DNA of 38,015 nt from a virus: positions 1 through 38,015 of the IMG/VR virus record IMGVR_UViG_3300043409_001222. One strand, given 5' to 3'. The translations under genes and the position numbers were made by a program. Shown in pieces: positions 1 to 38,015 of the stretch; positions within the stretch are counted from its first letter, which is position 1, and every line of letters begins with the position of its first letter. The notes under the pieces were generated by a model. It worked only from the letters and a program-made list of their open reading frames with translations, was not told where the DNA came from and ran no database searches.

Positions 1-39
1 TTATAATTTGCTTTTTATTTTGTTTGTTAAGTCATAAAC

Positions 40-94
40 CGATACTTTAGGATTGTCTGCACGCTACATCGTTTAGCTGCAAAACGTTATAAGC
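40..94. repeat. attC-like site, right part only
   Basis: The right core AACGTTATAAGC ends at 94 and has the form seen at the other attC-like sites (CG then TTA). The left partner arm is not visible and probably lies beyond the start of the window. The core GTTATAAGC is the exact reverse complement of the left core GCTTATAAC at 436-444, on the far side of the next gene. This is the pairing expected of the two ends of one integron cassette. Confidence 0.4.
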
Positions 95-98
95 TATG

Positions 99-404
99 TT
101 ACGAGTCAGACTTAACAGAAAGATATTCTTCTACAAATTCATCCCATTCAACACCTTCTTCTTCGTTGTAATAACTTACCCAATCAGGATTTCCGTCTCC
201 ATCTGAATCTTCTTCCCACATTACCACTTCAATTGAGTTACAATAGTCAGGAATCACATTGTTATCAAAAAGAAATAAATGCTGGTTAGCTAATGTTTCT
301 TGAATTAAATACGCCTGTTCCTCATCTTTCACATCTACAAAAAACGGTGTACAAGGAATTTGTGGGTAATGCAATACTCTTAATTTGTTTTTTACTTTTA
401 TCAT
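99..404 (-). CDS. Hypothetical cassette protein, 101 aa (copy 1)
   Basis: Acidic small protein with no signal peptide or membrane segment and no function I can name. The N-terminal half (VLHYPQIPCTPFFVDV) looks like a compact alpha/beta fold. The C-terminal half is rich in Asp, Glu and Trp (DSDGDGNPDW, WDEFVEEY). It lies between attC-like sites and its stop codon begins 12 bases after the crossover core. A second copy begins at the right edge of the window (37835-38015) and is identical over the shared 197 bases except one base, which changes Val85 to Phe. Being carried twice suggests a useful accessory function, but that is inference. Confidence 0.7.
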   Translation of the reverse strand: MIKVKNKLRVLHYPQIPCTPFFVDVKDEEQAYLIQETLANQHLFLFDNNVIPDYCNSIEVVMWEEDSDGDGNPDWVSYYNEEEGVEWDEFVEEYLSVKSDS

Positions 405-435
405 TTTAATTTAGTTTTAAACCCCAAAACACACA

Positions 436-628
436 GCTTATAACAGCAATGTATGGGAACACATCAAAGCAATCAGCGTGGACTAAAACACTACGCATAA
501 CATCGGTTTTGCAATAGTGGGGCGGAAGTTGTAAATTCATCATTTGTAATTCTATTAAACATTAGTTGTGGGTTGAACATTTGTGCCTTGAAACCCCACC
601 ATCGCAAAGCCGAGAACCGTTATATTCC
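436..628. repeat. attC-like site 2 (compound)
   Basis: Left core GCTTATAAC at 436-444, right core CCGTTATATTCC at 617-628. The main stem pairs TCGGTTTTGCAATAGTGGGG (about 503-522) with CCCCACCATCGCAAAGCCGA (about 594-613), with a few mismatches and a loop of about 70 bases. A second left core, CGCATAAC, ends at 501. The 57 bases at 444-500 therefore look like the remnant of an extra, gene-less mini-cassette. The stop codon of the next gene (562) lies in the loop. Confidence 0.65.
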
Positions 629-990
629 AGCTTCGAGCAACTTATCTGCCAACATTGTGGTTGTTGTAATTTTTCTATTTCTTCTCTAATTTTTAAATGG
701 TATTTCATAGCTTCTTCGTCATAAAATCCCATTTGCATTTTTAAAAATGTTATTATTTCGTCAATGCTTATCAATGCACATTCTTTAGCTTGATAAAAAG
801 TTAATCTTTCTTTTTGAAATTGCATCTTAAGTACAATTTCTATTGCTCTAAACTGTTCTCCTGTCATTTTATTTTGTTTTAATTTTTTATTTGTTTTTGT
901 TTCGTAAGTTATTCCATTTTTAGTATAATACTTTGGTATATTGTGGGTTGGTATTAACCTCCCTTGCCATTTTTCAGGAAATATGCTCAT
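562..990 (-). CDS. Hypothetical cassette protein, K-x-CA-LI-x-DEII family (long form)
   Basis: A 142-residue frame. Residues 42-110 (from MTGEQFRAIEIVLKMQ through QAKECALISIDEIITFLK) match the 59-residue product just upstream at 1000-1179, so the two are paralogues. The family looks all-helical and has no known function to me. The first 41 residues (MSIFPEKWQGRLIPTHNIPK...) may be a fused extra segment; an internal ATG at about 867 would give a product starting like the short paralogue. The last 18-19 residues are encoded by the adjacent attC-like palindrome, so the gene seems to lack its own stop codon. It follows the short paralogue by 9 bases and is probably co-transcribed with it. Confidence 0.6.
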   Translation of the reverse strand: MSIFPEKWQGRLIPTHNIPKYYTKNGITYETKTNKKLKQNKMTGEQFRAIEIVLKMQFQKERLTFYQAKECALISIDEIITFLKMQMGFYDEEAMKYHLKIREEIEKLQQPQCWQISCSKLEYNGSRLCDGGVSRHKCSTHN

Positions 991-999
991 AATTTTAAT

Positions 1000-1179
1000 T
1001 TATCTATTTAGTATTTCTTGTTTGACTTCTTGCCAATATTTTTGACTTTCAATATCTTGTAATTTATTAATTGATATTATTTCATCAACTGCAATTAATG
1101 CGCATTTCATTGCCATAATAATACTTATTTCTTCTTGGTATTTAATTAATAATTTTAATGCTTTCTTTTTTGGTGTCAT
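1000..1179 (-). CDS. Hypothetical cassette protein, 59 aa, short paralogue
   Basis: An ATG at 1179 opens a 59-residue frame starting MTPKKKALKLLIKYQEEI. Its core, AMKCALIAVDEIISINK, aligns with QAKECALISIDEIITFLK in the neighbouring 562-990 gene. It is Lys/Glu-rich, probably helical, with no Cys pairs or membrane span. It is first in a two-gene cassette, 46 bases from the attC-like site at 1225-1304. Function unknown. The clear match to its neighbour is what makes it a real gene. Confidence 0.65.
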   Translation of the reverse strand: MTPKKKALKLLIKYQEEISIIMAMKCALIAVDEIISINKLQDIESQKYWQEVKQEILNR

Positions 1180-1224
1180 TTTTTTAAATATTTTAATTTA
1201 TTATTTATTAGTAAATAAAGCCGA

Positions 1225-1304
1225 GAATATAACAATCACTACAAGCTAGTTGCCGAATCAACGCACCGCATAGGCAACCAGCGTGTAGTTTTAACGTTAT
1301 AAGC
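1225..1304. repeat. attC-like site 3
   Basis: Left core GAATATAAC (1225-1233), right core CGTTATAAGC (1295-1304). The stem pairs CTACAAGCTAGTTGCC (1239-1254) with GGCAACCAGCGTGTAG (1273-1288): 14 of 16 positions pair, and the mismatches are internal as in attC sites. It is nearly the same sequence as site 6 at 2832-2910. Its left core is complementary to the right core of site 2 (GTTATATTC). Confidence 0.75.
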
Positions 1305-1308
1305 AAGT

Positions 1309-1635
1309 TTAGACGACCTCGTTATAATCAAATTCTTCTTTATAATTTACTACTTTCATAAAATCCTCTAAAGTTTTAAACATTGAACCGTCAGGATTTT
1401 TAATCGTAAAATAAGTATCGCTACTCCATTCACTTTTCGCTTTTTCAACAATATATCCTCTTTCGTGATATTCGCTCTCTAAGCCTTGAAACTCAATTAA
1501 TAAACAAGGCGATGACATCATCCCACCTGTTGCAACTCTTGAATTTTCTAAAAATTTAATTTTTGACATTAGTAGCTGTAATCTTGGTTCGTTTTCTAAT
1601 GCTACTGCAATTGTAATTTTTTTAATTTTATCCAT
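1309..1635 (-). CDS. Hypothetical cassette protein, 108 aa
   Basis: Soluble mixed alpha/beta protein starting MDKIKKITIAVALENEPR, with a Gly/Met/Ser stretch (ATGGMMSSPCLLIEF) near the middle and a Tyr/Asp/Glu-rich end. No recognised family. It is the only gene of its cassette. The start is 18 bases from the left core of the next site and the stop begins 12 bases from the crossover core, the same distance as in four other cassettes. Confidence 0.65.
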   Translation of the reverse strand: MDKIKKITIAVALENEPRLQLLMSKIKFLENSRVATGGMMSSPCLLIEFQGLESEYHERGYIVEKAKSEWSSDTYFTIKNPDGSMFKTLEDFMKVVNYKEEFDYNEVV

Positions 1636-1645
1636 AATAAAACCT

Positions 1646-1766
1646 GCTTATAACAGTTGTTTGGCACTATTGCCGTTTAGTTTTTCAGCGGAAAATACGC
1701 TGTTTTTAGTTTTCAATTCACGTTCACGTTATCGGCAACATTGCCAAGCACGGGAACGTTATCAGG
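1646..1766. repeat. attC-like site 4
   Basis: Left core GCTTATAAC (1646-1654), right core CGTTATCAGG (1757-1766). The stem pairs TTTGGCACTATTGCCG (1660-1675) with CGGCAACATTGCCAAG (1733-1748), with a loop of about 57 bases. The left core matches the right core of site 3 and the right core matches the left core of site 5 (CCTGATAAC), as cassette ends should. Confidence 0.75.
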
Positions 1767-1770
1767 AATA

Positions 1771-2076
1771 CTACGTTAATGCCTTTTCAAGAACTTTTCT
1801 CACTTTGCTTACGTCAAATGATAGTAGTTGTCCTTTTTGTTCGTAACATTCAATTATTTCCTGTAAAACATTTAACATATCAGGCGCAGAACATATAAGC
1901 CTTATATCGGCTCTCGTGTCATTTCCTCCCATAGCCCCATAAGTAGAAATTATTTCAGTTTTTGAGCCGTCTAAATCCCATTCAGGATTTGGTTCTATAC
2001 TCCATTCGGTGTCGCTTTCAATACAATGTTTATATTCATTGTAAATCCATTTACCTGTTGTGTGTTTTGTTTTCAT
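1771..2076 (-). CDS. Phage protein of the HTTGKW / ANxRLIxxAP family
   Basis: A 101-residue protein. It opens with MKTKHTTGKW and ends with TRADIRLICSAPDMLNVLQE. This pair of motifs is typical of a widespread small phage protein family (HTPGPW at the front, A-A-LIA-APE-LEAL at the back) whose function is unknown to me. Residues 76-101 probably form two helices. It is the single gene of its cassette; the stop begins 12 bases from the crossover core of site 4. The family link is from memory of the motif, not from a search. Confidence 0.75.
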   Translation of the reverse strand: MKTKHTTGKWIYNEYKHCIESDTEWSIEPNPEWDLDGSKTEIISTYGAMGGNDTRADIRLICSAPDMLNVLQEIIECYEQKGQLLSFDVSKVRKVLEKALT

Positions 2077-2104
2077 AACATATTTAGTTTTAAATTGCCG
2101 TACT

Positions 2105-2177
2105 CCTGATAACAGTTGCTATAAGAGATTTTCGGCTTCGATTTCCCCACCATCGCAAAGCCGTTTAACGTTACTGG
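2105..2177. repeat. attC-like site 5
   Basis: Left core CCTGATAAC (2105-2113), right core CGTTACTGG (2169-2177). The stem pairs CGGCTTCGAT (2133-2142) with ATCGCAAAGCCG (2152-2163), with a two-base bulge. Its right arm, CCCCACCATCGCAAAGCCG, is identical to the right arm of site 2. Its right core matches the left core of site 6 (CCAGTAAC). Confidence 0.65.
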
Positions 2178-2182
2178 TAATT

Positions 2183-2341
2183 TTACCTACTAAGACTATT
2201 TAGATAATCCCGAACCATTTTTTTTACTTCATCAACTTTTGAAATTGGAATCCTAAAAGCAGTTGTTTTCGTTGGCTCGTTGTACTTAGGCTTTGCGCCA
2301 GCATTTCTGCGAGCACCACCTCTTATTGTTCTTTTTTGCAT
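2183..2341 (-). CDS. Small basic phage protein, RGGARxNAGxKPKY family, possible ribbon-helix-helix
   Basis: An ATG at 2341 gives 52 residues. The basic N-terminus RGGARRNAGAKPKYNEPTKT is followed by FRIPISKVDEVKKMVRDYL. This layout (basic G-A-R-G-A-G-KPKY arm, then one short strand and helix) is common in small phage and plasmid proteins thought to bind DNA, often compared to ribbon-helix-helix proteins. Such a role is inferred here. It overlaps the end of the upstream gene by 19 bases and is last of three genes in its cassette. The stop is 12 bases from the site 5 crossover. Confidence 0.7.
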   Translation of the reverse strand: MQKRTIRGGARRNAGAKPKYNEPTKTTAFRIPISKVDEVKKMVRDYLNSLSR

Positions 2342-2517
2342 TGTTTGAATTTGGTTTTTAAGAATGCTTCTATATTTTTTTTGCTGAAATTTGCGTTTAT
2401 TGTCCAGCTAAAGGCTATTCCGTCAGTTTCAATATCTATAAAGTTGATTGTGTTGCCTATTTTTTTTACAACTATTATTTTTTCATCATCAACTTTATAA
2501 AAATAAATACTACGCAT
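2323..2517 (-). CDS. Hypothetical cassette protein, 64 aa
   Basis: Short protein starting MRSIYFYKVDDEKIIVVKK: a run of probable beta strands followed by a helical basic tail (FLKTKFKQCKKEQ). Family not recognised. It overlaps the upstream gene by 8 bases and the downstream gene by 19, so the three appear translationally coupled and mobilised together in one cassette of about 726 bases. Confidence 0.6.
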   Translation of the reverse strand: MRSIYFYKVDDEKIIVVKKIGNTINFIDIETDGIAFSWTINANFSKKNIEAFLKTKFKQCKKEQ

Positions 2518-2701
2518 TTAGCATAGTATTTATTTTTTCTTTTAAAACTTGGAAAGTCCCAGCTTTCATAATGTAGCTAAGTTCAACAAGAACATCGTTT
2601 AAATATTCCATAGCCTCTACATCATTAGAGTACTTAGTAAAAGCTAAAGCATCAGCTATTAATCCTTGTTCTGTTGTTGGCATATTATCTGATAGTTTCA
2701 T
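2510..2701 (-). CDS. Hypothetical cassette protein, 63 aa, with its own promoter
   Basis: The frame could extend to a TTG at 2776, but that segment contains a full Bacteroidota promoter (2747-2777). The start is therefore placed at the ATG at 2701, 46 bases downstream of the -7 box. The product is MKLSDNMPTTEQGLIADALA followed by an acidic helical region (NDVEAMEYLNDVLVELSYIM). Function unknown. First gene of a three-gene cassette. Confidence 0.6.
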   Translation of the reverse strand: MKLSDNMPTTEQGLIADALAFTKYSNDVEAMEYLNDVLVELSYIMKAGTFQVLKEKINTMLNA

Positions 2702-2746
2702 AATTAAAAGTGTTAAGATAAAAACTTCGTTGTTGTTATCTGAGTA

Positions 2747-2777
2747 CAAATATACATACTTATTTTGAATACGCAAA
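2747..2777 (-). promoter_or_regulatory. Bacteroidota promoter inside a cassette
   Basis: On the minus strand, TTTG (2777-2774) and TATATTTG (2754-2747) are separated by exactly 19 bases, a full match to the Bacteroidota consensus. It would drive the three overlapping genes 2701 to 2183. Confidence 0.7.
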
Positions 2778-2831
2778 CTTTTTCAAAGAAAATTTAATTT
2801 ATTTTTAATTACACGTAAAAAATAAAAACTA

Positions 2832-2910
2832 CCAGTAACAATCGCTACAAGCTAGTTGCCGAAATTCAGCAACCGCACAGGCAACCAGCGTGTAGCTTGA
2901 ACGTTGCAGG
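2832..2910. repeat. attC-like site 6
   Basis: Left core CCAGTAAC (2832-2839), right core CGTTGCAGG (2902-2910). The stem pairs GCTACAAGCTAGTTGCC (2844-2860) with GGCAACCAGCGTGTAGC (2880-2896): 15 of 17 positions pair. It is nearly identical to site 3. Next to it, 2915-2938 is an almost perfect hairpin (TGCTCAACTTTG with CAAAGTTGCGCA) of unknown role. Confidence 0.75.
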
Positions 2911-2946
2911 TAAGTTTGCTCAACTTTGTAGCCAAAGTTGCGCAGA

Positions 2947-3132
2947 CTACCTTTTATCGGTTATTTTATAGTATTGTTTAGCCTCCATTATATGCAAGAA
3001 TCTTGCATCCTGATATTTATTTTCAATATAATAATCAATTTCTTTTTGAGCAATTTCCTCTGAATCATACTCTTGTTGCGTGTATCTTTGCAGTTTATTT
3101 TTATCGTCGTGATACGTGATAATGTATGTCAT
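2947..3132 (-). CDS. Hypothetical cassette protein, 61 aa
   Basis: Small charged protein, MTYIITYHDDKNKLQRYTQQ then EEIAQKEIDYYIENKYQDAR, with a probable strand-helix-strand order. Family not recognised. Single gene of its cassette. It lies 36 bases beyond site 6, with an intervening hairpin. Confidence 0.6.
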   Translation of the reverse strand: MTYIITYHDDKNKLQRYTQQEYDSEEIAQKEIDYYIENKYQDARFLHIMEAKQYYKITDKR

Positions 3133-3154
3133 AATTCGTTATTTAAAAAACCTA

Positions 3155-3289
3155 CCTACAACAATATATTGTAACAATTAAGGCTTTTGTTATTAATTTA
3201 TTTACTGTTTTGTACTTTTTAGTTTAGGTCTTTAATCGAAGTATAAGGTGTACTTTTCCTTAACTGCTACAATAATGAACGTTAGTGGC
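3155..3289. repeat. attC-like site 7
   Basis: Left core CCTACAAC (3155-3162), right core CGTTAGTGGC (3280-3289). The stem pairs ATTGTAACAATTAAGG (3168-3183) with CCTTAACTGCTACAAT (3258-3273), with two mismatches and a loop of about 74 bases. The right core is the exact complement of the left core of site 8 (GCCACTAAC). Confidence 0.7.
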
Positions 3290-3293
3290 AAGG

Positions 3294-3752
3294 CTACGAA
3301 TTCGTTTTTTTAGAAGATTTAGGATTTTCGACAATCATCCAATTCAATACTTTAGTTTCACTAGATACTTGCCAATTTCCATATTTAAAAGAAATAACTT
3401 CTTGCCATTTTAAGGATGTTCCACAATCATTTTTTCTAATCAAGAAACACAAATAATCATCATCAAATTCAGGTATAAAATTGGTCGACAACCATATCTG
3501 AGGGCATTTAATAATTCGTTCTTGTTTAATTAATAAAGTACCATCTTTTTGAACTTCTGAAACTTCTGTAACTATCATTGCATATTCATTTTCCAAATAA
3601 GCATCTTTAGCCTCTTTTAGAGTTTTAAATCTTATTAATGGGTTTTTATCTATCATTTTACCATAAATAGCATAATCAATTCTAATTGAGTTTTCTTGTT
3701 CAATTAATCCTCCATCGATTTGTTCTGATATTCTGTTTTCGTCGTATGACAT
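3294..3752 (-). CDS. Hypothetical cassette protein, 152 aa
   Basis: Largest gene of the left array. The product starts MSYDENRISEQIDGGLIEQE and looks soluble, with probable strands around residues 70-140 including FDDDYLCFLIRKNDCGTSLK and Trp residues. No motif I can assign. Single gene of its cassette. The stop begins 12 bases from the site 7 crossover and the ATG is 46 bases from the left core of site 8. Confidence 0.65.
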   Translation of the reverse strand: MSYDENRISEQIDGGLIEQENSIRIDYAIYGKMIDKNPLIRFKTLKEAKDAYLENEYAMIVTEVSEVQKDGTLLIKQERIIKCPQIWLSTNFIPEFDDDYLCFLIRKNDCGTSLKWQEVISFKYGNWQVSSETKVLNWMIVENPKSSKKTNS

Positions 3753-3789
3753 AGTTTTTTAATTAAATTTAGTGCTGATAATCCGCCCA

Positions 3790-3927
3790 GCCACTAACAG
3801 CGGTTTTATTCAATTGCGAAATTTAGTAGTGTTATCACGTTCACGTTTCGCATCGTGTTTTTATTTATCCGAAAATATCCAGTTCCGTAGTTCGCAACTG
3901 AAATAAAGCCACAGGACGTTATGCGGG
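3790..3927. repeat. attC-like site 8
   Basis: Left core GCCACTAAC (3790-3798), right core CGTTATGCGGG (3917-3927). The stem pairs GGTTTTATTCAATTGCGAA (3802-3820) with TTCGCAACTGAAATAAAGCC (about 3891-3910). It belongs to the same arm family as site 10 at the other end of the window (TAACAGCGGTTTT on the left arm in both). Confidence 0.7.
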
Positions 3928-3942
3928 ATGCCGTAATACCGC

Positions 3943-4200
3943 TTAAAAAACATCTATTTCTTCTATTAAAAATTTTTCTTCATCTATCAAAGATTGAATT
4001 TTATGCATATAAACTTTTTCACTTTCAATAACACCACTTGCTCTTAAATCAAAGATAAGTTCTCTTAAATAATGATACCTATCTTTTACAACTACTTTCA
4101 TTAAATCATTAATATCATTATCACTCATTGCCTCATATTCAGGAACGGAACAATTAATTTTTTCAAATAATTCTTGTTTTTTTTCTTTTAAATCTATCAT
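3943..4200 (-). CDS. Hypothetical cassette protein, 85 aa
   Basis: Starts MIDLKEKKQELFEKINCSVP and is strongly helical and charged throughout (YHYLRELIFDLRASGVIESE, ending in EEKFLIEEIDVF). Probably coiled-coil or helical-bundle; no family recognised. Last recognisable cassette gene of the left array before the degenerate site at 4244-4275. Confidence 0.6.
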   Translation of the reverse strand: MIDLKEKKQELFEKINCSVPEYEAMSDNDINDLMKVVVKDRYHYLRELIFDLRASGVIESEKVYMHKIQSLIDEEKFLIEEIDVF

Positions 4201-4243
4201 TGTTAATTTGTTTTAATTGATTAATATTGTTTTGCACATGCTA

Positions 4244-4275
4244 TACGCATTAATGAGGGTAGCGTCCGTTAAACC
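4244..4275. repeat. Degenerate attC-like end of the left array
   Basis: TACGCATTAATGAGGGTAGC followed by GTCCGTTAAACC. The right end has the CG-TTA form (crossover at 4268/4269). CGCATTAA is a weak match to the expected partner of the site 8 core (GCATAAC). The arms are too short for a normal attC, so this may be a truncated terminal site. Confidence 0.35.
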
Positions 4276-4287
4276 TGTTATTTTCTC

Positions 4288-4545
4288 TTATTTTTCAAAA
4301 GAAACAGTTATTTTTTTACCTGTCTTTTTTCCTATTTCGTGGGCAAATTCGATAAGTTTATCTTGGTCGCCATCATAAAGAAGAACATCTATTTTATTTT
4401 CTTCAAGATATTGATCTACATTACTAAGTTTAGGAGAACTTTTCCCTTTTTCCCAATTTAAAATAGTTCTTGGAGAAACTACAACAACTTTGCTTTTCTT
4501 TGTTTTTTCGGTTAGTATTTTAACTAATTGTTCGATTATGCTCAT
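4288..4545 (-). CDS. HTH (Xre-like) regulator
   Basis: An 85-residue protein. Residues 10-50 include SPRTILNWEKGKSSPKLSNV, the recognition-helix pattern of Xre/Cro-type helix-turn-helix proteins (S-x-x-TI-x-NWE-G-x-x-x-P). The C-terminal 35 residues (LLYDGDQDKLIEFAHEIGKK) may form a dimerisation domain. It is last of a leftward three-gene operon facing the early genes, a typical position for a regulator of the divergent promoters; that role is inferred. It overlaps the upstream gene by 4 bases. Confidence 0.6.
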   Translation of the reverse strand: MSIIEQLVKILTEKTKKSKVVVVSPRTILNWEKGKSSPKLSNVDQYLEENKIDVLLYDGDQDKLIEFAHEIGKKTGKKITVSFEK

Positions 4546-12246: not shown

Positions 12247-13280
12247 AAAAAATACCCGAAGAAAAATTTGACCCTAGATTAATAGAAAATTATAGGGTAA
12301 AACATACGGATGAAGTATCGCCGCCTGATGTTGTGCTTTTTGTATCGGGCCAAATGGTTGCTACTAGAAAAAACATTTTTGGAATTACAGGAAAAGCAAA
12401 AGTTGGAAAAACTTTTTTAATGACTTTGATTAACTCTGTGGTCCTAAAAAAAAATGAACTAGGGGTACTTTCAAGCTATCTTCCAAAAGGTAAAGACAAA
12501 ATTTTGTATATTGACACTGAGCAGTCGGAGTGGCACGTTTCAAAGGTTATGCAACGAATTAATAAATTAATTGAATCGAAAAGAATTGAAAACCTATTGA
12601 TGTATTCTTTTGATGCTGTACCGACTTCGCAAAGATGGCAATATACGGAATGGTTAATTTGCAATAATCCAAACGTAGGTCTAGTTATTATTGATGGTAT
12701 AGCCGATTTAGTAAAATCTGTAAATGATGAAATAATTGCGTGCGATACGGCCGATTGGATGCGAAGAATGGCTACTATAAATGATGTAGCAATTGGTTAT
12801 GTATTGCACCAAAACCCAAGCGACAGCGCAAAAATGCGAGGCCATTTAGGGACTGTTTTAATGAATAAATCAGAGACAGTTATACAAATATCTTCATCAA
12901 AGGAAAATGAATCTATAAAGTTGGTCCAAACAACTCAAACAAGAAATAAAAAGCCTGAGGATTGGAGTTTTGAAATTATAGACGGAATTCCTGTAATTAT
13001 GGACCAATGCTATACTGAACCTGTGGCGGGCCGAAAAAAAACAAAGGTACTTACGGATTTAGAAAAATACGATCTTCTTTTGGAATGCTACCGTTACGAA
13101 AAAGAAATAGGGTATACAGTTTTAACTGAAAAGATGCGTAAAAACTATATTGAAAAGTTTGGAGAAATTGGAATAAATTCAATCAAGGAGATATTAAAAT
13201 ACTGCAAAGAAATGAATTTTTTAACCCAAGACAAGCCTAAAGCTGGTTATGTTTTACAGCCTCATCGGTTTACGGTTTAA
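12225..13280 (+). CDS. RecA-fold replicative ATPase (RepA/DnaB-like)
   Basis: A 351-residue AAA_25/RepA-type ATPase, probably a replicative helicase or helicase-like initiator. Walker A GKAKVGKT is at 56-63, then a DKILYIDTEQS strand (91-101) typical of RecA-fold helicases. Walker B-like LVIIDGIADL is near 152-161 and a sensor-type HQNPSDSAKMRGHLGTV follows near 195-211. The C-terminal 80 residues look like a winged-helix DNA-binding domain. It directly precedes the CGTAC-rich non-coding stretch, as expected near a phage origin. Confidence 0.75.
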   Translation: MFEPIQIEKIPEEKFDPRLIENYRVKHTDEVSPPDVVLFVSGQMVATRKNIFGITGKAKVGKTFLMTLINSVVLKKNELGVLSSYLPKGKDKILYIDTEQSEWHVSKVMQRINKLIESKRIENLLMYSFDAVPTSQRWQYTEWLICNNPNVGLVIIDGIADLVKSVNDEIIACDTADWMRRMATINDVAIGYVLHQNPSDSAKMRGHLGTVLMNKSETVIQISSSKENESIKLVQTTQTRNKKPEDWSFEIIDGIPVIMDQCYTEPVAGRKKTKVLTDLEKYDLLLECYRYEKEIGYTVLTEKMRKNYIEKFGEIGINSIKEILKYCKEMNFLTQDKPKAGYVLQPHRFTV

Positions 13281-13609
13281 AAATAGGTATGTGTTAAAAG
13301 TTTGTTAACGTACCATCTAATTTGTAAGAATACTTCCAAAGTTTAAAATCAAAACATTTAACAAAATTATGCCGTACAACGTTAAAAATCGAAAAAATCA
13401 AATTATTATCAATAAAACTGTTAAAAAAATGTGCGGTACGGTAAAAAATGCAAATCGTACCGATAATATAGCAATGGTACGAGTATGTAACGCCCTATAT
13501 ATAATATAGGGCGTACCGTACCGTACTGTACAAGAAAAAAAACACATCTTCTATTACTTGCAAGGTTTGAAAATTGATTGTATATTTGAATAATAAACCA
13601 ATAAAAAAT
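13281..13609. other. Non-coding CGTAC-repeat region, candidate origin
   Basis: About 330 bases with no credible gene. CGTAC or its complement occurs at about 13309, 13373, 13435, 13456, 13476, 13512, 13517 and 13522; the last three are in tandem. A perfect 10-bp hairpin, CGCCCTATAT with ATATAGGGCG around a 3-base loop, lies at 13491-13513, directly against the tandem repeats. The region is otherwise A-rich. Position after the replicative ATPase suggests a replication origin; an operator cluster is the alternative. A -7 box TATATTTG at 13581-13588 drives the next gene. Confidence 0.5.
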
Positions 13610-13933
13610 ATGATCACAGAAACACAATATTTAGAGGCTAAAAAATTATATCTAAAATCTAAAAGTATTTTAATAAAATATAATTCTCAACAACCAAAAA
13701 TAAAAAACAAAGTTGGCAGAAAACTTTTTGCGCATCCAAGTGAAGAAGAAATTAGTTTTTGTTTGGAATTAATATTTAAAGAAAAACCAAAATTAATGTA
13801 CACGGAAATAATTTCATTAATGGCATCTAATTTAAAAATCGGAATAAACTCATGCAAAAAAATATTTACTAAAATAGTTTTAGAAGAAAAAATTAAAAGT
13901 AACGGTCCGAGAAAATCTTATGAAAAAAACTAA
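13610..13933 (+). CDS. Hypothetical protein, 107 aa
   Basis: The ATG at 13610 is preferred: a frame start at 13574 (TTG) overlaps the -7 box TATATTTG. The product is basic, with probable helices: EAKKLYLKSKSILIKYNSQQ, then HPSEEEISFCLELIFKEKPK, and a region that may be a helix-turn-helix (GINSCKKIFTKIVLEEKIKS). Candidate DNA-binding protein beside the putative origin; family unknown. It overlaps the next gene by 14 bases. Confidence 0.55.
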   Translation: MITETQYLEAKKLYLKSKSILIKYNSQQPKIKNKVGRKLFAHPSEEEISFCLELIFKEKPKLMYTEIISLMASNLKIGINSCKKIFTKIVLEEKIKSNGPRKSYEKN

Positions 13934-14117
13934 TTGCAAACATTGTCAGATGCCCTGCAAGCAACAAGGAAAAACAGAATGCTCTAAATACAACGCAATA
14001 GCAGACAGACCATCACAACTACCAACGCTAATAAGGGAAGCTATAAACAAAGGAGATCATAAAAAAGTAAAGGAATTGCAAATTGAACTTGATCAGTTTA
14101 ATTATGGGAAGTGTTAA
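13920..14117 (+). CDS. Small Cys-rich hypothetical protein
   Basis: A 65-residue protein starting MKKTNCKHCQMPCKQQGKTE with C-x2-C-x3-C-x7-C spacing, which could bind a metal. A helical segment LREAINKGDHKKVKELQIEL-type follows (present here as IREAINKGDHKKVKELQIEL). Phage proteins with this N-terminal Cys cluster and E-IN-GD--KV-EL tail occur in Bacteroidota phages. Function unknown to me. Confidence 0.6.
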   Translation: MKKTNCKHCQMPCKQQGKTECSKYNAIADRPSQLPTLIREAINKGDHKKVKELQIELDQFNYGKC

Positions 14118-14198
14118 AATAGTGTTAAAATTAATATTTAGAGTTGCAAATGTAAATAGTTGTTGTATCTTTGCTAAAGAAATCAAAAAAATATAATT

Positions 14199-14285
14199 AT
14201 GAAAACATCAGAAAAAATAATCGCAGTTTTAACAATCGCTATAATAATAGCAATTCATTTAATAACTCCAAATATTTATAAATAA
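14199..14285 (+). CDS. Single-span membrane peptide, 28 aa
   Basis: Preceded by the -7 box TATCTTTG at 14166-14173, 25 bases upstream. The frame MKTSEKIIAVLTIAIIIAIH has one hydrophobic helix (7-22). Its TAA overlaps the next ATG (TAATG), so it may mainly couple translation of the downstream gene, or act as a small membrane protein. Confidence 0.45.
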   Translation: MKTSEKIIAVLTIAIIIAIHLITPNIYK

Positions 14286-14653
14286 TGATAAAAGTAATTG
14301 AAAATTTAAACATAGATCACAACGGGAATATTTACACGCCCGAAAGTATAGGGTATCATTCTTTGTATTGCAAGTTTATTCAAAAAAACATTCCTTTCAA
14401 AATAGGCTCTGTAATCGAAGAAAAAACAGTAGGACGACCTAGAACATCAAACAGAGAGAGATTGCAGTTGTACGTGCAAAAAAACCATATAGAAAAGGTT
14501 AGGACGTTTAAAAAAGGTTTAGATATTGAGGAATACATTGTAAAAAAGGTAAATGAGGGACAAGAAAGCGATGTTAAGCCTTATACAATTGAAACAATAC
14601 CGTTTAATTTGATTGAGTTTTGGGTAGAAAAATATAAAATAGAAAAATCATGA
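14285..14653 (+). CDS. Hypothetical protein with a GRPR basic motif
   Basis: A 122-residue protein. The N-terminal half includes IDHNGNIYTPESIGYHSLYC. The middle has EKTVGRPRTSNRERLQLYVQ, a basic GRPR-type stretch often found in DNA-binding proteins, followed by helical KVRTFKKGLDIEEYIVKKVN. DNA binding is a suggestion only. It overlaps the next gene by ATGA. Confidence 0.55.
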   Translation: MIKVIENLNIDHNGNIYTPESIGYHSLYCKFIQKNIPFKIGSVIEEKTVGRPRTSNRERLQLYVQKNHIEKVRTFKKGLDIEEYIVKKVNEGQESDVKPYTIETIPFNLIEFWVEKYKIEKS

Positions 14654-15150
14654 AAAATATATTAATTACATTATTATTCCCTATTTTCGCTTTTAGCCAA
14701 ACAGGGGTATATCATCAATTTGTTAGTTCAAATTGGATGCTATGAGCAGATGCTTTATTTGAAACTAACAACGGACATATAGGTATTGGTTTTAGCGGTG
14801 CATTAGATAAAATGACCGCAGCAGGAGAATGGCGTCCAGGAAAAGCGCAAGATTACGAAAAACAATACATTACAGGTCAAGAAAAAGAAAGATGGTTTTC
14901 TTGTTACGGGATCATTTCAAAAGGATACATAAACGAAATACAAGTTTCTTTTAATGCTGGCTTTGGTTTATTCGATGTAAAGGACGAATTTAATAAATAT
15001 GGGTATTTGTATAATAAAAATAAATTCGTTCAATGCGTGCCTTTAATTGGCGTGGGTGGTCAATATGCAATTACTAAAGATGTGGGGGTAATGATCGGAG
15101 TAGATACTTTCAACGGAGCAAAAATAGGAATATCAATAATATTTGAGTAG
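14650..15150 (+). pseudogene. Exported beta-barrel-like protein interrupted by an in-frame TGA
   Basis: An ATG at 14650 opens a frame with a clear signal peptide (MKNILITLLFPIFAFSQ), then reads to codon 32, where TGA (14743-14745) interrupts it. The same frame continues for 135 more codons. The remaining sequence has alternating strands and Gly/aromatic ends (FNAGFGLFDVKDEF, GVGGQYAITKDVGVMIGVD, ending IGISIIFE), as in small outer-membrane barrels. The context NWML-stop-ADALFE suggests a Trp codon (TGG) became TGA. Either a recent nonsense mutation, a sequencing error, or read-through. A phage-encoded surface protein could alter host receptors, but that is speculation. Confidence 0.6.
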
Positions 15151-23145: not shown

Positions 23146-23171
23146 GCCTTACAGATTATGTAAGGCTTTTT
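23144..23171. terminator. Bidirectional terminator between converging genes
   Basis: AAGCCTTAC (23144-23152) pairs with GTAAGGCTT (23160-23168), with T residues on the right and A residues on the left. It lies between the ends of the gp10-like gene and the antisense endonuclease, whose stop codon is in the stem. Confidence 0.7.
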
Positions 23172-23661
23172 CGTATGCTAAATGAGCATCATATTCATTT
23201 ATAAAATAACCTAAATGTTTTCTAGTGCCATTTAACCAAATTTTAGAAACCCATTTACTACTATTTTTATGCAAATTTACGCCGACATATTGGCTAGTAC
23301 TTTTGAATCTTTTTAAATTTGCGTTTTCTCTTTGAGTTACAATTTCTAAGTTTTTTAAATTATTGTTTATTTTGTTTCCGTCAATATGGTTTACAACTAA
23401 TTTATGACCACATAATTTGTGATTTAAAAATGCGATAGCCACTAGCTGATGAACTTTTATTCTCTTACAGTTTAGGTTGTATAGACCAACAACGCAATAT
23501 CCGTGAAAATCAACAGTAGGTTTTAAAATTTTCTCTTTGTTTATTCTTAAGTTAATTTTCCCTTTTACCAATCTTTGTAAACTTTTAACACGACCTAAAT
23601 TGCTTACTTGATAAATTCCTTCGTAGTTAGGAATATCTTTCCAAATTTCTATTATTTCCAT
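23149..23661 (-). CDS. Homing-type HNH endonuclease (NUMOD4-HNH-AP2)
   Basis: Antisense gene inside the late operon. The start is at 23661, because upstream residues read from the frame fall in the leader. In 170 residues: NUMOD4 motif WKDIPNYEGIYQVSNLGRVK (6-25), HNH core VNHIDGNKINNNLKNLEIVT with preceding His residues (about 100-120), and an AP2-like DNA-binding end SQYVGVNLHKNSSKWVSKIW followed by LGYFINEYDAHLAYEKA. This domain order is typical of free-standing homing endonucleases. It has its own promoter and pseudoknot leader. Confidence 0.88.
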   Translation of the reverse strand: MEIIEIWKDIPNYEGIYQVSNLGRVKSLQRLVKGKINLRINKEKILKPTVDFHGYCVVGLYNLNCKRIKVHQLVAIAFLNHKLCGHKLVVNHIDGNKINNNLKNLEIVTQRENANLKRFKSTSQYVGVNLHKNSSKWVSKIWLNGTRKHLGYFINEYDAHLAYEKALHNL

Positions 23662-23755
23662 AATACAAAAAACCCTCAAAAAAGCGATGCAAGGCACTTA
23701 AAAGAGGGAATTTTATTAAATTGTTATATCGCTTGCATTCGATACTACAAATATA
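23662..23755 (-). ncRNA. Structured leader 3: promoter plus predicted pseudoknot before the HNH homing gene
   Basis: Minus strand: -7 box TATATTTG (23755-23748), then TAGTA. A ATGCAAG (23738-23732) pairs with A' CTTGCAT (23693-23687), and B CCCTC (23708-23704) pairs with B' GAGGG (23677-23673). A T-run and then TTTTTTGTATTATG lead to the start at 23661. The order A-B-A'-B' and spacing match leaders 1 and 2. The bases after A (AACAATTTAA) resemble leader 2. Confidence 0.65.
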
Positions 23756-34924: not shown

Positions 34925-36379
34925 ATGAGTACAGTAATTAAAGACCCTATTACGGGGGCGTTGTTAGAAGTAACAGGCGGGAGACAATTAAAGGTAAAAC
35001 AAGCTAATCCAGTAGATGTAGACGGTTCAGAGCATTTTACTGACGTAGGGTCGGTTAGAATGCAATCAGAAGTAGATGCGGGTACAATTACAGGCACACC
35101 TACGCTAAAAGCTTTAGAAGTATCTAGTGATTACAGGTTGAGGGTAGGTGTTGACCATTCAGTAATTAATGAGTTATTTCCTGGTACTGTTTTAAACACT
35201 GCTTTATGGACTACTCCTACAGCTACTATGACAGCTACGGTTGCAGGGGGTTTTGTAAACTTAAATGCAGGTTTGTCTTTAGCGTCTGGAGCGGTTGCGA
35301 GATTATCTTCTTATAGAAGTTTCCCTTGCTATAAATCTTACACGACTTATTATGAAAGTCAATTGCAATTTACAGAAACGCCAATAGCGGGTAATGTTTG
35401 CGAGTGGGGAGCGGGTATTGCAACAGGAGTTGCTACTCCAACAGACGGATGTTTTTTTAGATTAAATTCTGCTGGGGAATTTAGAGCAGTAGTAAATAAT
35501 AACGGTACAGAAATACAATCAGCAAGTTTAAATTTTGCTAGTTTAATAGGGGTTAATACTTCAAGATTATTTTTGATTTACGTAATTTCTAATAAGGCTT
35601 TATTTTGGATTGATAATATTTTAGTAGCTGAGGTAGATATGGCTATAGCACAAGGCTCAATCACTTCATCAATGCAGCTACCTGTTTTGTTTAGAAATTA
35701 TAATAGTACCGCAGTTAGTACAGCGCAAGTGATGAAAATTTCATTTGTGAATGTTACAATGGCAGACCAAAACACATCAAAATTATGGAACTCTATATTA
35801 TGTGGAGCTGGTGGTCATTCTAGTCAAGGGCAAACAGGGCAAACAATGGGCAGTACTGCTTTGTATTCAAACAATTTAGCAGCGGGTGCAGGTGTAGCAA
35901 TGACAAACACAACCGCAGCTTTAGGCTCTGGATTAGGTGGTCAATTTTCAGCATTACCTACATTAGCAGTAGGTACAGACGGTATTGTTTCTAATTTTCA
36001 AGTTCCTTTGGGATCTTCTTTAATTCCAGCAAAAACACTGTATATTACAAGAATAACTTTAAATGCAGCAGTAACAACAACGCTTGCTGGTGGGAATGTG
36101 CTTTACGCTTATTCTTTAGCTTATGGACACACAAACGTTTCTTTAGCCACAACAGAAACAGCTACATCTAAATCGTCAAGAAGGATTCCTGTAGGGTTTC
36201 ATAACTTTTCAGCAGCTGCACCATCAGGGACAATTGGCGGAACTATTGATTTAGATTTAAATAGTCCTATAGTTGTACAACCTGGGGAATTTGTACAATT
36301 AGTTGCAAAAAATTTAGGAGTAGTTACAACAGCAGGTGTTATAACATTTTTAGTAAGTTTTGGAGGATATTGGGAATAA
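34925..36379 (+). CDS. Large virion surface protein, function unknown
   Basis: A 484-residue beta-rich protein, MSTVIKDPITGALLEVTGGR, poor in charge and rich in Ala, Thr, Gly and Ser. It includes RLFLIYVISNKALFWIDNIL and an Ala/Gly-rich segment (QGQTGQTMGSTALYSNNLAA). It lies one base after the collagen-like fibre gene and is likely part of the fibre or receptor-binding complex. I recognise no domain. Confidence 0.6.
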   Translation: MSTVIKDPITGALLEVTGGRQLKVKQANPVDVDGSEHFTDVGSVRMQSEVDAGTITGTPTLKALEVSSDYRLRVGVDHSVINELFPGTVLNTALWTTPTATMTATVAGGFVNLNAGLSLASGAVARLSSYRSFPCYKSYTTYYESQLQFTETPIAGNVCEWGAGIATGVATPTDGCFFRLNSAGEFRAVVNNNGTEIQSASLNFASLIGVNTSRLFLIYVISNKALFWIDNILVAEVDMAIAQGSITSSMQLPVLFRNYNSTAVSTAQVMKISFVNVTMADQNTSKLWNSILCGAGGHSSQGQTGQTMGSTALYSNNLAAGAGVAMTNTTAALGSGLGGQFSALPTLAVGTDGIVSNFQVPLGSSLIPAKTLYITRITLNAAVTTTLAGGNVLYAYSLAYGHTNVSLATTETATSKSSRRIPVGFHNFSAAAPSGTIGGTIDLDLNSPIVVQPGEFVQLVAKNLGVVTTAGVITFLVSFGGYWE

Positions 36380-36394
36380 TTTAAAATTAAATAT

Positions 36395-36538
36395 ATGAAA
36401 CCAAAAAAGAGATTTTTCGATACGGTAGTAGGCAAGATACTACTAACTATACTACCAATGATTATAAAAAATCAGAAAGGCATTAAAGGTACAGATAAGG
36501 CACAAAAAGTGGATGATGTTGCTGAATTATTAAAATAA
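36395..36538 (+). CDS. Small hypothetical protein, 47 aa
   Basis: Frame MKPKKRFFDTVVGKILLTIL then PMIIKNQKGIKGTDKAQKVD. A hydrophobic segment (11-24) and a basic end suggest peripheral membrane association. Last gene of the late operon, immediately before the terminator. Function unknown. Confidence 0.5.
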   Translation: MKPKKRFFDTVVGKILLTILPMIIKNQKGIKGTDKAQKVDDVAELLK

Positions 36539-36568
36539 AAAAAACGCTCTTAATAAGAGCGTTTTTTA
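36539..36568. terminator. Bidirectional terminator at the end of the late genes
   Basis: AAAACGCTCTTA and TAAGAGCGTTTTTT form a long hairpin with A- and T-rich flanks. It separates the rightward late genes from the leftward block starting at 36571. Confidence 0.82.
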
Positions 36569-36570
36569 TT

Positions 36571-36855
36571 TTATAAATTAAACACATAATCTAAGTGTAT
36601 CTGCTCGTTCCATTGCAAGATGCTAACATCTTTTTTAACTTCCTCAACTTTTACCAAATCTTTTATTTTACTTAAACTATACCACTTTCGATTAATCCAA
36701 TAGCCTAAACAATTATTATTGTCTTTTAATTCTAGTTTTATAGGTAAATTGCTGATGTCGAACAAAACTTTTTTTCTGAATGAAAACGTCTTATTATCTA
36801 TTTTAAAATAGTTTGAATAAGTAATGAAATATTCGTTGTCAAGGTTTGAAGCCAT
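36571..36855 (-). CDS. Hypothetical protein, 94 aa
   Basis: Begins MASNLDNEYFITYSNYFKID, with Lys/Asn/Tyr-rich strands (KVLFDISNLPIKLELKDNNN) and Trp residues (GYWINRKWYSLSK). No family recognised. Its stop is directly at the shared terminator. It is outside the clear attC-like pattern, so it may be a resident gene rather than a cassette. Confidence 0.55.
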   Translation of the reverse strand: MASNLDNEYFITYSNYFKIDNKTFSFRKKVLFDISNLPIKLELKDNNNCLGYWINRKWYSLSKIKDLVKVEEVKKDVSILQWNEQIHLDYVFNL

Positions 36856-36879
36856 TGTTTATAGGGGTTTGAGTAGGTT

Positions 36880-36908
36880 AGTTAGTTGTATGGATGAGTT
36901 ATGCGTCA
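36880..36908. repeat. Possible array start of the right cassette block
   Basis: GTTAGTTGTATGGATGAGTT then ATGCGTCAGC. The GAG-TTATGCG junction (36898/36899) resembles the right cores of the attC-like sites (GTTATGCG also at 3918 and, on the minus strand, near 501). No full palindrome precedes it. It may be a non-attC insertion point, like an attI, or chance. Confidence 0.25.
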
Positions 36909-37358
36909 GCTTACAAGAGCGTCAAAAACGACAATCATACTATCTTTCGTTCCGCTCTGTTCCTTTCCGTCTTTATTTAATGGAATATAGAAGTTTCCGT
37001 TTTCGTCTAACTTTCCAAATTTTATTCTACCTTTTAAAAATTCTATTTCAGTTGCATTTGGTTTGATCCATTCGTGAAATAGTTTTGTACTTGTAGATAC
37101 AGGTATCAGGAAAACACAAACTTTTCCTTTTTTCATTTCTTCAACTCCTTTTTTCACAAATTCTTCTTTTAGCTTTTGGCTATAAGGTGGATTTATAAAA
37201 TTTGAGTTTCCCCATTCGATTTTTAAACCATCATTTACAATTTCATTTTCATTGTAAGGACAAGGATCAAAATCAAAATTAAACCGCTTATTCAGTTCCT
37301 CGTATAATTTTGGGGGTGTAGCGTAATTATCATCGTTGTTTATATGTATTTTCTTCAT
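36906..37358 (-). CDS. Phage DNA N6-adenine methyltransferase (Dam-like)
   Basis: A 150-residue enzyme that methylates adenine in DNA using S-adenosylmethionine. Visible features: NNDDNYATPPKLYEELNKRF (the D-Y-TP---F motif of phage N6A methyltransferases), FDFDPCPYNENEIVN, the catalytic NPPYS at about residues 57-61, and FLIPVSTSTKLFHEW and FLKGRIKFGKL. It fits the compact phage family rather than classical Dam. It may protect phage DNA from host restriction. It lies in the right cassette block, preceded by a clear attC-like site. Confidence 0.88.
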   Translation of the reverse strand: MKKIHINNDDNYATPPKLYEELNKRFNFDFDPCPYNENEIVNDGLKIEWGNSNFINPPYSQKLKEEFVKKGVEEMKKGKVCVFLIPVSTSTKLFHEWIKPNATEIEFLKGRIKFGKLDENGNFYIPLNKDGKEQSGTKDSMIVVFDALVS

Positions 37359-37385
37359 TTCTAAATTTTAGTAGATAAAAAGCCA

Positions 37386-37524
37386 GCTCCTAACAGCGGT
37401 TTTGACTTATTGCCGTTTTCGGCTTCATTTAATGTTGTTTTTTTATTTTCCATAATCTGTCTTAAATTTAAATATTAGGTCTTATTTTATCGGCAACAAG
37501 ACAAAGCCACGAACCGTTAGCGAC
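37386..37524. repeat. attC-like site 10
   Basis: Left core GCTCCTAAC (37386-37394), right core CGTTAGCGAC (37515-37524). The stem pairs GCGGTTTTGACTTATTGCCG (37396-37415) with CGGCAACAAGACAAAGCCAC (37491-37510): 16 of 20 positions pair, with a loop of about 75 bases. Confidence 0.75.
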
Positions 37525-37777
37525 AATGACAGTAGAGGGCGTGAATAACAGTCCATTTGCTTTTTGATTCATTTTTAAAAGTGAATGAAATATTATTGTT
37601 TTCAACTCTTTTTAAAACGCCAAATAAAATCCTTGTTGGTATTGCGGTACACTTTCCATCTCTTAAAAAAGATAATACTAAATCGGAAGTTGCTTGTAAA
37701 TCACTGTCGCTAACACACGCTTGTAGCAATGCTTCGTTTTTTTCTTCGATTGACGTTTTATTCTCTTCTGTTTTCAT
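37517..37777 (-). CDS. Hypothetical cassette protein, 86 aa
   Basis: The start is taken at the ATG at 37777 (MKTEENKTSIEEKNEALLQA); the ATG at 37813 would extend into the attC-like site. The product is helical with CVSDSDLQATSDLVLSFLRD and TAIPTRILFGVLKRVENNNI. Family not recognised. The stop codon TAA is formed by the first three bases of the site 10 right core (TTA), an economical arrangement also seen in some integron cassettes. Confidence 0.55.
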   Translation of the reverse strand: MKTEENKTSIEEKNEALLQACVSDSDLQATSDLVLSFLRDGKCTAIPTRILFGVLKRVENNNISFTFKNESKSKWTVIHALYCHCR

Positions 37778-37796
37778 AAGTTCTTTTATTTTTAAT

Positions 37797-37830
37797 GAGT
37801 CGCACTGCGACAAGCTTTAACGTTATAAGC
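37797..37830. repeat. attC-like site 11, short
   Basis: Right core CGTTATAAGC (37821-37830) preceded by GTCGCACTGCGAC (a 6-bp perfect palindrome around C) and AAGCTTTAA. The usual long arms are missing, so this looks like a deleted site. From 37819 onward the sequence equals that from 83 onward. Confidence 0.5.
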
Positions 37831-37834
37831 TATG

Positions 37835-38015
37835 TTACGAGTCAGACTTAACAGAAAGATATTCTTCTACAAATTCATCCCATTCAAAACCTTCTTCTTC
37901 GTTGTAATAACTTACCCAATCAGGATTTCCGTCTCCATCTGAATCTTCTTCCCACATTACCACTTCAATTGAGTTACAATAGTCAGGAATCACATTGTTA
38001 TCAAAAAGAAATAAA
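37835..38015 (-). CDS. Hypothetical cassette protein (copy 2, cut by the window end)
   Basis: Equivalent to the C-terminal 59 codons of the 99-404 gene. The only difference in the shared 197 bases is at 37888 (A) versus 152 (C), changing Val85 to Phe. The start lies beyond the window. The sequence before the stop is shared back to 37819, the attC core, and then diverges. Confidence 0.7.
   Translation of the reverse strand, partial: LFLFDNNVIPDYCNSIEVVMWEEDSDGDGNPDWVSYYNEEEGFEWDEFVEEYLSVKSDS

Follow-up and report, generated by a model that had tools for sequence, protein, structure and literature searches.

The window analysed here is the whole 38,015-base virus record IMGVR_UViG_3300043409_001222, which represents a siphovirus-like phage. 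The phage encodes a terminase and shows similarity to Flavobacterium phage 11b near the Erf gene of the latter. Both contig ends carry small genes separated by long palindromes that resemble the attC sites of integrons. The first-pass annotation, made from the letters alone, had described seven such palindromes at 83-4275 as a cassette array without an integrase. All seven were present in our analysis, although the one placed at 436-628 proved to be composite, consisting of a full site (492-628) and a truncated left half (436-501). The array at 83-4275 was real, but the sites at 37385-37525, 37705-37831 and 1-95 had been overlooked. The left and right contig ends form one cassette array, which continues at 37385-38015. 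No integron integrase was found in the window record, as had been claimed. With eight matches to R1, our covariance model of the sites (including the truncated match at 1-95 and the weak one at 2104-2179), and no IntI in the record, the array corresponds to a cluster of attC sites lacking an integrase (CALIN), i.e., at least two attC sites with no integrase nearby.

The cassettes were delimited by their matching ends, as the first bases of each cassette (GTT...) pair with its own last bases (...AAC). In positions 1-4400 and 36300-38015 we counted eight GTT.../...AAC pairs of at least 9 bp, whereas Markov shuffles expect 1.05 and the rest of the window genome holds 1.18 per equal length. This bears out the earlier observation that the right core of each site is complementary to the left core of the next one. 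The AACA...CGTT asymmetry also held for every window site on the plus strand, and the cassette genes lie on the minus strand. A chain finder based on core pairs alone was tried and rejected, since chance chains were plentiful in AT-rich DNA and a shuffle reached 8; chains were retained only where the site lengths were regular.

The last 194 bases of the contig (37822-38015) are identical to 86-279 at 193 positions. The identity starts from the (AAC)GTT core and the preceding DNA differs. Two different sites thus precede one and the same cassette, so that the cassette is present twice or the phage population varies. The repeat may be an effect of assembling a mixed population; even then it would be a sign of cassette-exact variation. 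Parts of the array recur elsewhere (compared sequences carry L numbers and genomes G numbers): the short site, conserved in both of its arms, was found in 13 viral stretches, 1293-1673 recurs in L060 (82%), the start at 618 recurs in L057, and the DNA of the Dam cassette is shared with L038 and L055. The stretch 36850-36905 is the probable insertion point, because in L055 the homologue of the gene 36571-36855 likewise precedes a GTT core and an array.

Features of the two contig ends that form the cassette array of the window
Positions	Strand	Feature	Evidence
1-95	+	attC-like site, 5' end cut by contig start	R1 50.3 bits, E 2e-8, model positions 46-140
86-444	+	cassette 1 body, core GTTATAAGCT to AGCTTATAAC, with gp17-like gene 99-404(-)	10-bp core match
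99-404	-	P22 gp17-type superinfection exclusion protein	PF17420 8e-16; phrog_1510
436-501	+	truncated left half of attC-like site, end of cassette 1	R'' matches the core at 86; own right arm lacking
492-628	+	attC-like site	R1 86 bits, E 2e-16
619-1233	+	cassette 2 body, small genes on minus strand	9-bp core match
1224-1306	+	attC-like site, short class (~63 bp core to core)	arms and cores; same arms in 13 viral stretches
1296-1654	+	cassette 3 body, gene 1309-1635(-)	10-bp core match; entire cassette in L060, 82%
1645-1767	+	attC-like site	R1 62 bits, E 4e-11
1758-2113	+	cassette 4 body, gene 1771-2076(-), phrog_1273 (unknown function)	10-bp core match
2104-2179	+	attC-like site, short, weak	R1 22.7 bits, E 0.027; cores match
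2170-2839	+	cassette 5 body, several small minus-strand genes	10-bp core match
2830-2912	+	attC-like site, short class	arms as in other short-class sites
2903-3162	+	cassette 6 body, gene 2947-3132(-)	core match 9/10 bases; both ends recur in L012, L056, L065
3153-3290	+	attC-like site	R1 89 bits, E 4e-17
3281-3798	+	cassette 7 body, gene 3294-3752(-)	9-bp core match
3789-3927	+	attC-like site, last one detected, distal end	R1 72 bits, E 3e-13
36850-36905	+	probable phage insertion point (attI-like), core GTTATGCG at 36898	inferred from L055
36906-37358	-	Dam-type DNA adenine methyltransferase, first cassette	PF05869 5e-20; ~85% identical DNA in L038, L055
37385-37525	+	attC-like site	R1 106 bits, E 8e-21
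37516-37714	+	cassette body, core GTTAGCGACA to TGTCGCTAAC	10-bp core match
37705-37831	+	attC-like site	R1 50 bits, E 3e-8
37822-38015	+	second occurrence of cassette 1 start, behind a different site	193/194 identical to 86-279

R1 is a home-made model built from 54 sites, two of them from the window, and its training sites were picked by our own detector, which requires GTT and a following purine. The short sites 1224-1306 and 2830-2912 form a second length class outside the model. In all site sets, core-to-core lengths fell mostly into two groups, of about 115-124 bp and 55-67 bp, and few lay between these. The consensus fold of the 54 sites consists of two helices, of 10 and 6 pairs, and all but one of these 16 pairs (15) show compensatory changes. 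The bottom strand (the top strand being that reading AACA...CGTT) was predicted to be the more stable in 47/54 sites (p 2e-7). The arm differences were one-sided: left-A/right-G occurred 70 times versus 10 for the opposite, giving G.T pairs in the bottom strand and A.C mismatches in the top strand. The palindromes at the cassette ends, with their matching R' and R'', are integron-like folding sites, as claimed, but they are not classical attC sites. A bulge was absent in 37/54 sites and extra bases numbered 4 on the left arm and 15 on the right, unlike the left-arm extrahelical bases of classical attC. Similarly, only 7 of the 131 unique sites fitted GTTRRRY, the bases past the core being variable, and the RYYYAAC/GTTRRRY consensus was not followed. 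An Rfam scan of the window at the gathering cut-off gave no match. The sites of phage P12002L had no R1 match at E 0.5, and we do not claim that they are of the same type.

Cassette-exact variation was observed in the Baltic Flavobacterium phage isolates described in PMC7077304. These phages carry 9-15 cassettes each in their left regions, with the same kind of site. The identical flank common to the isolates ends ...AATATTGTA/GTTA, with divergence thereafter; this comparison excludes the two mumin records, whose sequence was taken without the flank. Shared cassettes were mostly 98-100% identical and of the same core-to-core length. When each cassette is given a letter, the array of lillamy9-1 reads P N H I J K L R E A G B C D and that of lillamy9-7 reads R P N H I J K L E A O B C (the stretch examined stops after C). 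In lillamy9-6, O stands in place of G, and snork6-2 is without P. M and F of hemulen6-1 are missing in stinky9-1, and the first two cassettes are the sole difference between snusmum6-1 and 9-1. The variation was mainly proximal or internal, and B, C (and D where covered) were constant at the distal end. In lillamy9-7, cassette R has gone from an internal place to the first position, and all three new junctions compared with lillamy9-1 lie at the GTT core. This would be the outcome expected of excision between two attC sites followed by insertion at the proximal site. The first-pass annotation had named the comparison of relatives as a check, as a fixed gene order would speak against it; the cassette-exact gains, losses and one relocation that we found point the other way. 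Such mobility was thus seen in related phages, and in the window's own phage the end repeat is the only sign of it.

In addition, we observed that the nearly identical arrays of stinky9-1 (L082) and hemulen6-1 (L072), with their two-cassette difference, involve a methyltransferase (cassette M). Another phage contig (L023) bears two separate cassette arrays, at 2470-4003 and 12601-14703.

PF00589 was absent from seven phage genomes that are complete, namely those of five Baltic isolates, of 11b and of P12002L, and across 14 records its single match was a 32-residue fragment at a contig edge. In contrast, the chromosomes of Flavobacterium contain both sites and a candidate enzyme. R1 matches were detected in 225/250 Flavobacterium species at E 0.01, at most 13 candidates being scored per genome. 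Seven genomes searched more deeply had 27-49 sites each. Many of these sites form long clusters, which extend over about 40 kb in G178 and G054, and the clusters were adjoined by one tyrosine recombinase gene. G178 has nine PF00589 genes: one is located 986 bp away from the array, and for the other eight the distance to any listed site ranges from 25 kb to 1.2 Mb. A site was present within a flank of up to 1.5 kb in 16 of 30 head-type genes, where about one was expected from the mean density; the nearest site was downstream on the same strand. In 15/18 loci the first cassette starts 93-107 bp past the recombinase stop codon, and its ends match at 8-10 of 10 bases. The DNA before it is conserved and attI-like, contains inverted repeats and ends in TATAnACnA/GTT; as in classical integrons, this site lies beside the integrase gene. 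A second recombinase search found sites adjoining the gene in 7/23 loci, some of these in Flavobacterium. At the thresholds used, the family was found in 116/200 Flavobacterium and 170/375 Bacteroidia genomes, of which the weaker matches may be other recombinases. A plasmid copy was also detected (L208, Chryseobacterium sp. SNU WT5 plasmid NZ_CP041688, 7995-17035), with four sites and an integrase of 66% identity. A pattern search with two short patterns found no relatives of the host enzyme in viral contigs. Chromosomes and phages also share array DNA: stretches of the hemulen6-1 array, about one site long, are 90-92% identical to Flavobacterium chromosomes, and a methyltransferase cassette of this phage has a relative in Flavobacterium croceum with such sites on its flanks.

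Seven of the enzymes at the array heads, from six genomes, have 347 residues and are 65-91% identical to the first. As judged from its sequence, the head recombinase is related to IntI. It aligns with IntI4 (2A3V) at 77-252 with 8-183 and at 268-344 with 241-317, and between these blocks 57 IntI4 residues face 15; the insertion of IntI1 is likewise missing from it. Thus, the head recombinase does not have the additional domain (I2) specific to IntI. The head enzymes matched TIGR02249 in two broken pieces with about 211 bits, under the cut-off of 265. Canonical IntI (TIGR02249, 1e-60) was found in 0/250 Flavobacterium genomes, and the same search detected IntI1 at 2.6e-154. The first impression from TIGR02249, that the arrays had no integrase at all, was dropped once the PF00589 and R1 coordinates were compared. 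The best NCBIfam match of the head enzyme was NF040815, at or just above its cut-off, and the N-terminus has about 75 extra residues with no Pfam assignment. In a tree, the head enzyme was placed on the IntI1 side, apart from XerC/XerD, with moderate support; the branches were long, and we therefore make no claim on whether I2 was lost or never gained. The additional domain has been used as the mark of IntI (PMC9668308; PMC9024848) and I2 has been described as an innovation permitting single-strand recombination (PMC7790495). According to PMC8138268, the insertion is not fully conserved in an integron-like subgroup, which may take in the head recombinases. By the definition that demands the additional domain, the present system is not an integron, yet it is integron-like in its apparent working.

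We consider it likely, with good confidence, that the window holds an integron-like array of a Flavobacterium-type siphovirus without its own integrase, whose cassettes are gained, lost and moved at the GTT core, most likely by the 347-residue I2-less recombinase of the host. With somewhat less assurance, we favour the wider proposal that Bacteroidota possess a widespread, unrecognised I2-less integron lineage, in which the strands would be told apart by A.C versus G.T rather than by extrahelical bases and which would serve the arrays of virulent phages in trans. The first-pass annotation had suggested that the phage perhaps acquires cassettes through a host integrase; a host enzyme is indeed probable, but the probable enzyme is the I2-less tyrosine recombinase instead of canonical IntI. 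Several observations weigh against these proposals. Only one clear relocation was found, and the case for recombination is drawn from sequence comparison. The host survey covered Flavobacterium genomes other than the phage hosts LMO6 and LMO9, and the phage insertion points are unlike the chromosomal attI. Moreover, genomes with sites (225/250) outnumber those with the head enzyme (116/200), and the short-site pattern was found in none of 84,980 bacterial genomes.

The same features could be read as a classical integron system, with ordinary attC sites, canonical IntI in some hosts and a plain CALIN in the phage. The AACA...CGTT asymmetry, the R'/R'' matching and the folding would all fit, CALINs are known in phages where most tested sites were functional with IntI1 (PMC9892861), and canonical IntI occurs in a few Bacteroidetes (PMC9024848). 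We find this unlikely, given that sites were present in 225 of the 250 genomes in which the control-validated search gave no IntI, and that the GTTRRRY rarity and the mostly unbulged arms do not suit ordinary attC. More doubtful still is the idea that the head gene is only a bystander and that the cassettes are mobilised by a different recombinase, either XerC/XerD or an unrelated enzyme from a mobile element. Flavobacterium genomes do encode XerC/XerD-like proteins and further PF00589 genes, and in some genomes with sites no head enzyme was detected; the adjacency of just one of nine such genes in G178 speaks otherwise, as do the gene, orientation and spacing to attI and first cassette that are conserved across many species and the recurrence of the arrangement outside Flavobacterium and on a plasmid. 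Finally, phages are mosaic, intergenic palindromes are common, the relative 11b has Erf-type recombination, and swaps between shared flanking cassettes are possibly homologous, so the palindromes might be terminators or other repeats and the variation ordinary homologous recombination or mosaicism. This seems very improbable to us: terminators do not need matched ends of each cassette, and chromosomal arrays start at a conserved site beside a recombinase. The relocation in lillamy9-7, with its three junctions exactly at the GTT core and no shared flanking cassettes, leads us to reject plain homologous recombination.

Each cassette consists of one or a few small genes with a folded attC-like site. 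If the host recombinase is responsible, in chromosomes the enzyme would move cassettes in and out between attI and these sites. During infection, the phage DNA would deliver sites and a usable insertion point into an enzyme-bearing cell. The phage could then gain cassettes at the fixed proximal point and lose or move them by recombination at the GTT core, presumably on folded single strands, and cassettes could pass between phages as well as between phage and host.

The chromosomal system resembles class 1 integrons and Vibrio superintegrons in its integrase gene with adjacent attI, in cassettes ending in palindromic sites with matching ends, in proximal insertion and relocation, and in the bottom-strand preference of the predicted folds. 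Unlike in integrons, the integrase has no IntI additional domain, precedes the array and reads toward it, and the sites rarely carry GTTRRRY and are mostly unbulged with one-sided A.C/G.T differences. The head enzyme is of the same fold family as XerA, XerC and XerD (NF040815, TIGR02224, TIGR02225), which also lack I2, but differs from XerC/XerD in its separate place in the tree, its N-terminal extension and its fixed position at array heads. The phage arrays are like the CALINs with methyltransferase cargo, active with IntI1, that were reported in virulent phages in 2023, some of them flavobacterial (P12002L, missed by R1) (Qi et al. 2023, PMC9892861). They differ from those in the cassette-exact changes among near-identical isolates and in the candidate host enzyme. 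Integrons are known in a few Bacteroidota (PMC8618304; PMC9024848), and the only complete integron that a large survey named for Bacteroidetes proper is that of Salinibacter (PMC9024848). Our search of the open-licence PubMed Central literature, supplements excluded, turned up no paper describing the Flavobacterium arrays, cassette arrays headed by an I2-less integrase, or cassette-exact shuffling among the Baltic isolates. Phage-borne CALINs are already known, and an I2-less Bacteroidota platform appears unreported. If the wider proposal is true, the I2-acquisition step could be tested on a living platform that has attI and folding sites but no I2, and most Flavobacterium species would have an integron-type gene reservoir. 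Cultured pairs of virulent phage and host would make cassette gain and loss observable.

The cargo of the window comprises a P22 gp17-type superinfection exclusion protein, a Dam methyltransferase and small unknown proteins, and the array region of filifjonk9-1 contains five methyltransferases. This points to a rapidly changing toolkit for countering host restriction and competing phages, and fits restriction escape and exclusion. PMC7077304 describes phages plating poorly on LMO6 as being without a particular methyltransferase and links plating to the presence of a methyltransferase gene; cassette cargo may set the plating efficiency on restricting hosts. In seven phage arrays, which have some cassettes in common, all 63 open reading frames of at least 45 residues were antiparallel to the sites, whereas 8/10 were parallel in one chromosomal array. 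The phage genes are therefore probably read from a leftward distal phage promoter and not from the attI side; cassettes so transcribed would be kept by selection where they fit.

Some further features were noted. Adjoining the croceum relative of the hemulen6-1 methyltransferase, one chromosomal cassette (L083, 6371-8352) encodes a D12 methyltransferase and an HNH protein, a probable restriction-modification pair. The head recombinase of L130 (G250:C1, 1416-3158) has 580 residues, about 280 of which form an N-terminal extension without a Pfam assignment. The interior of the L208 plasmid array holds two further genes, one for an IS110-family transposase and one for a reverse transcriptase of the group II intron type; both types of element are known to target attC sites. 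In the window itself, an HNH/NUMOD4/AP2 homing-endonuclease-like gene lies within the late operon at 23149-23697 on the minus strand.

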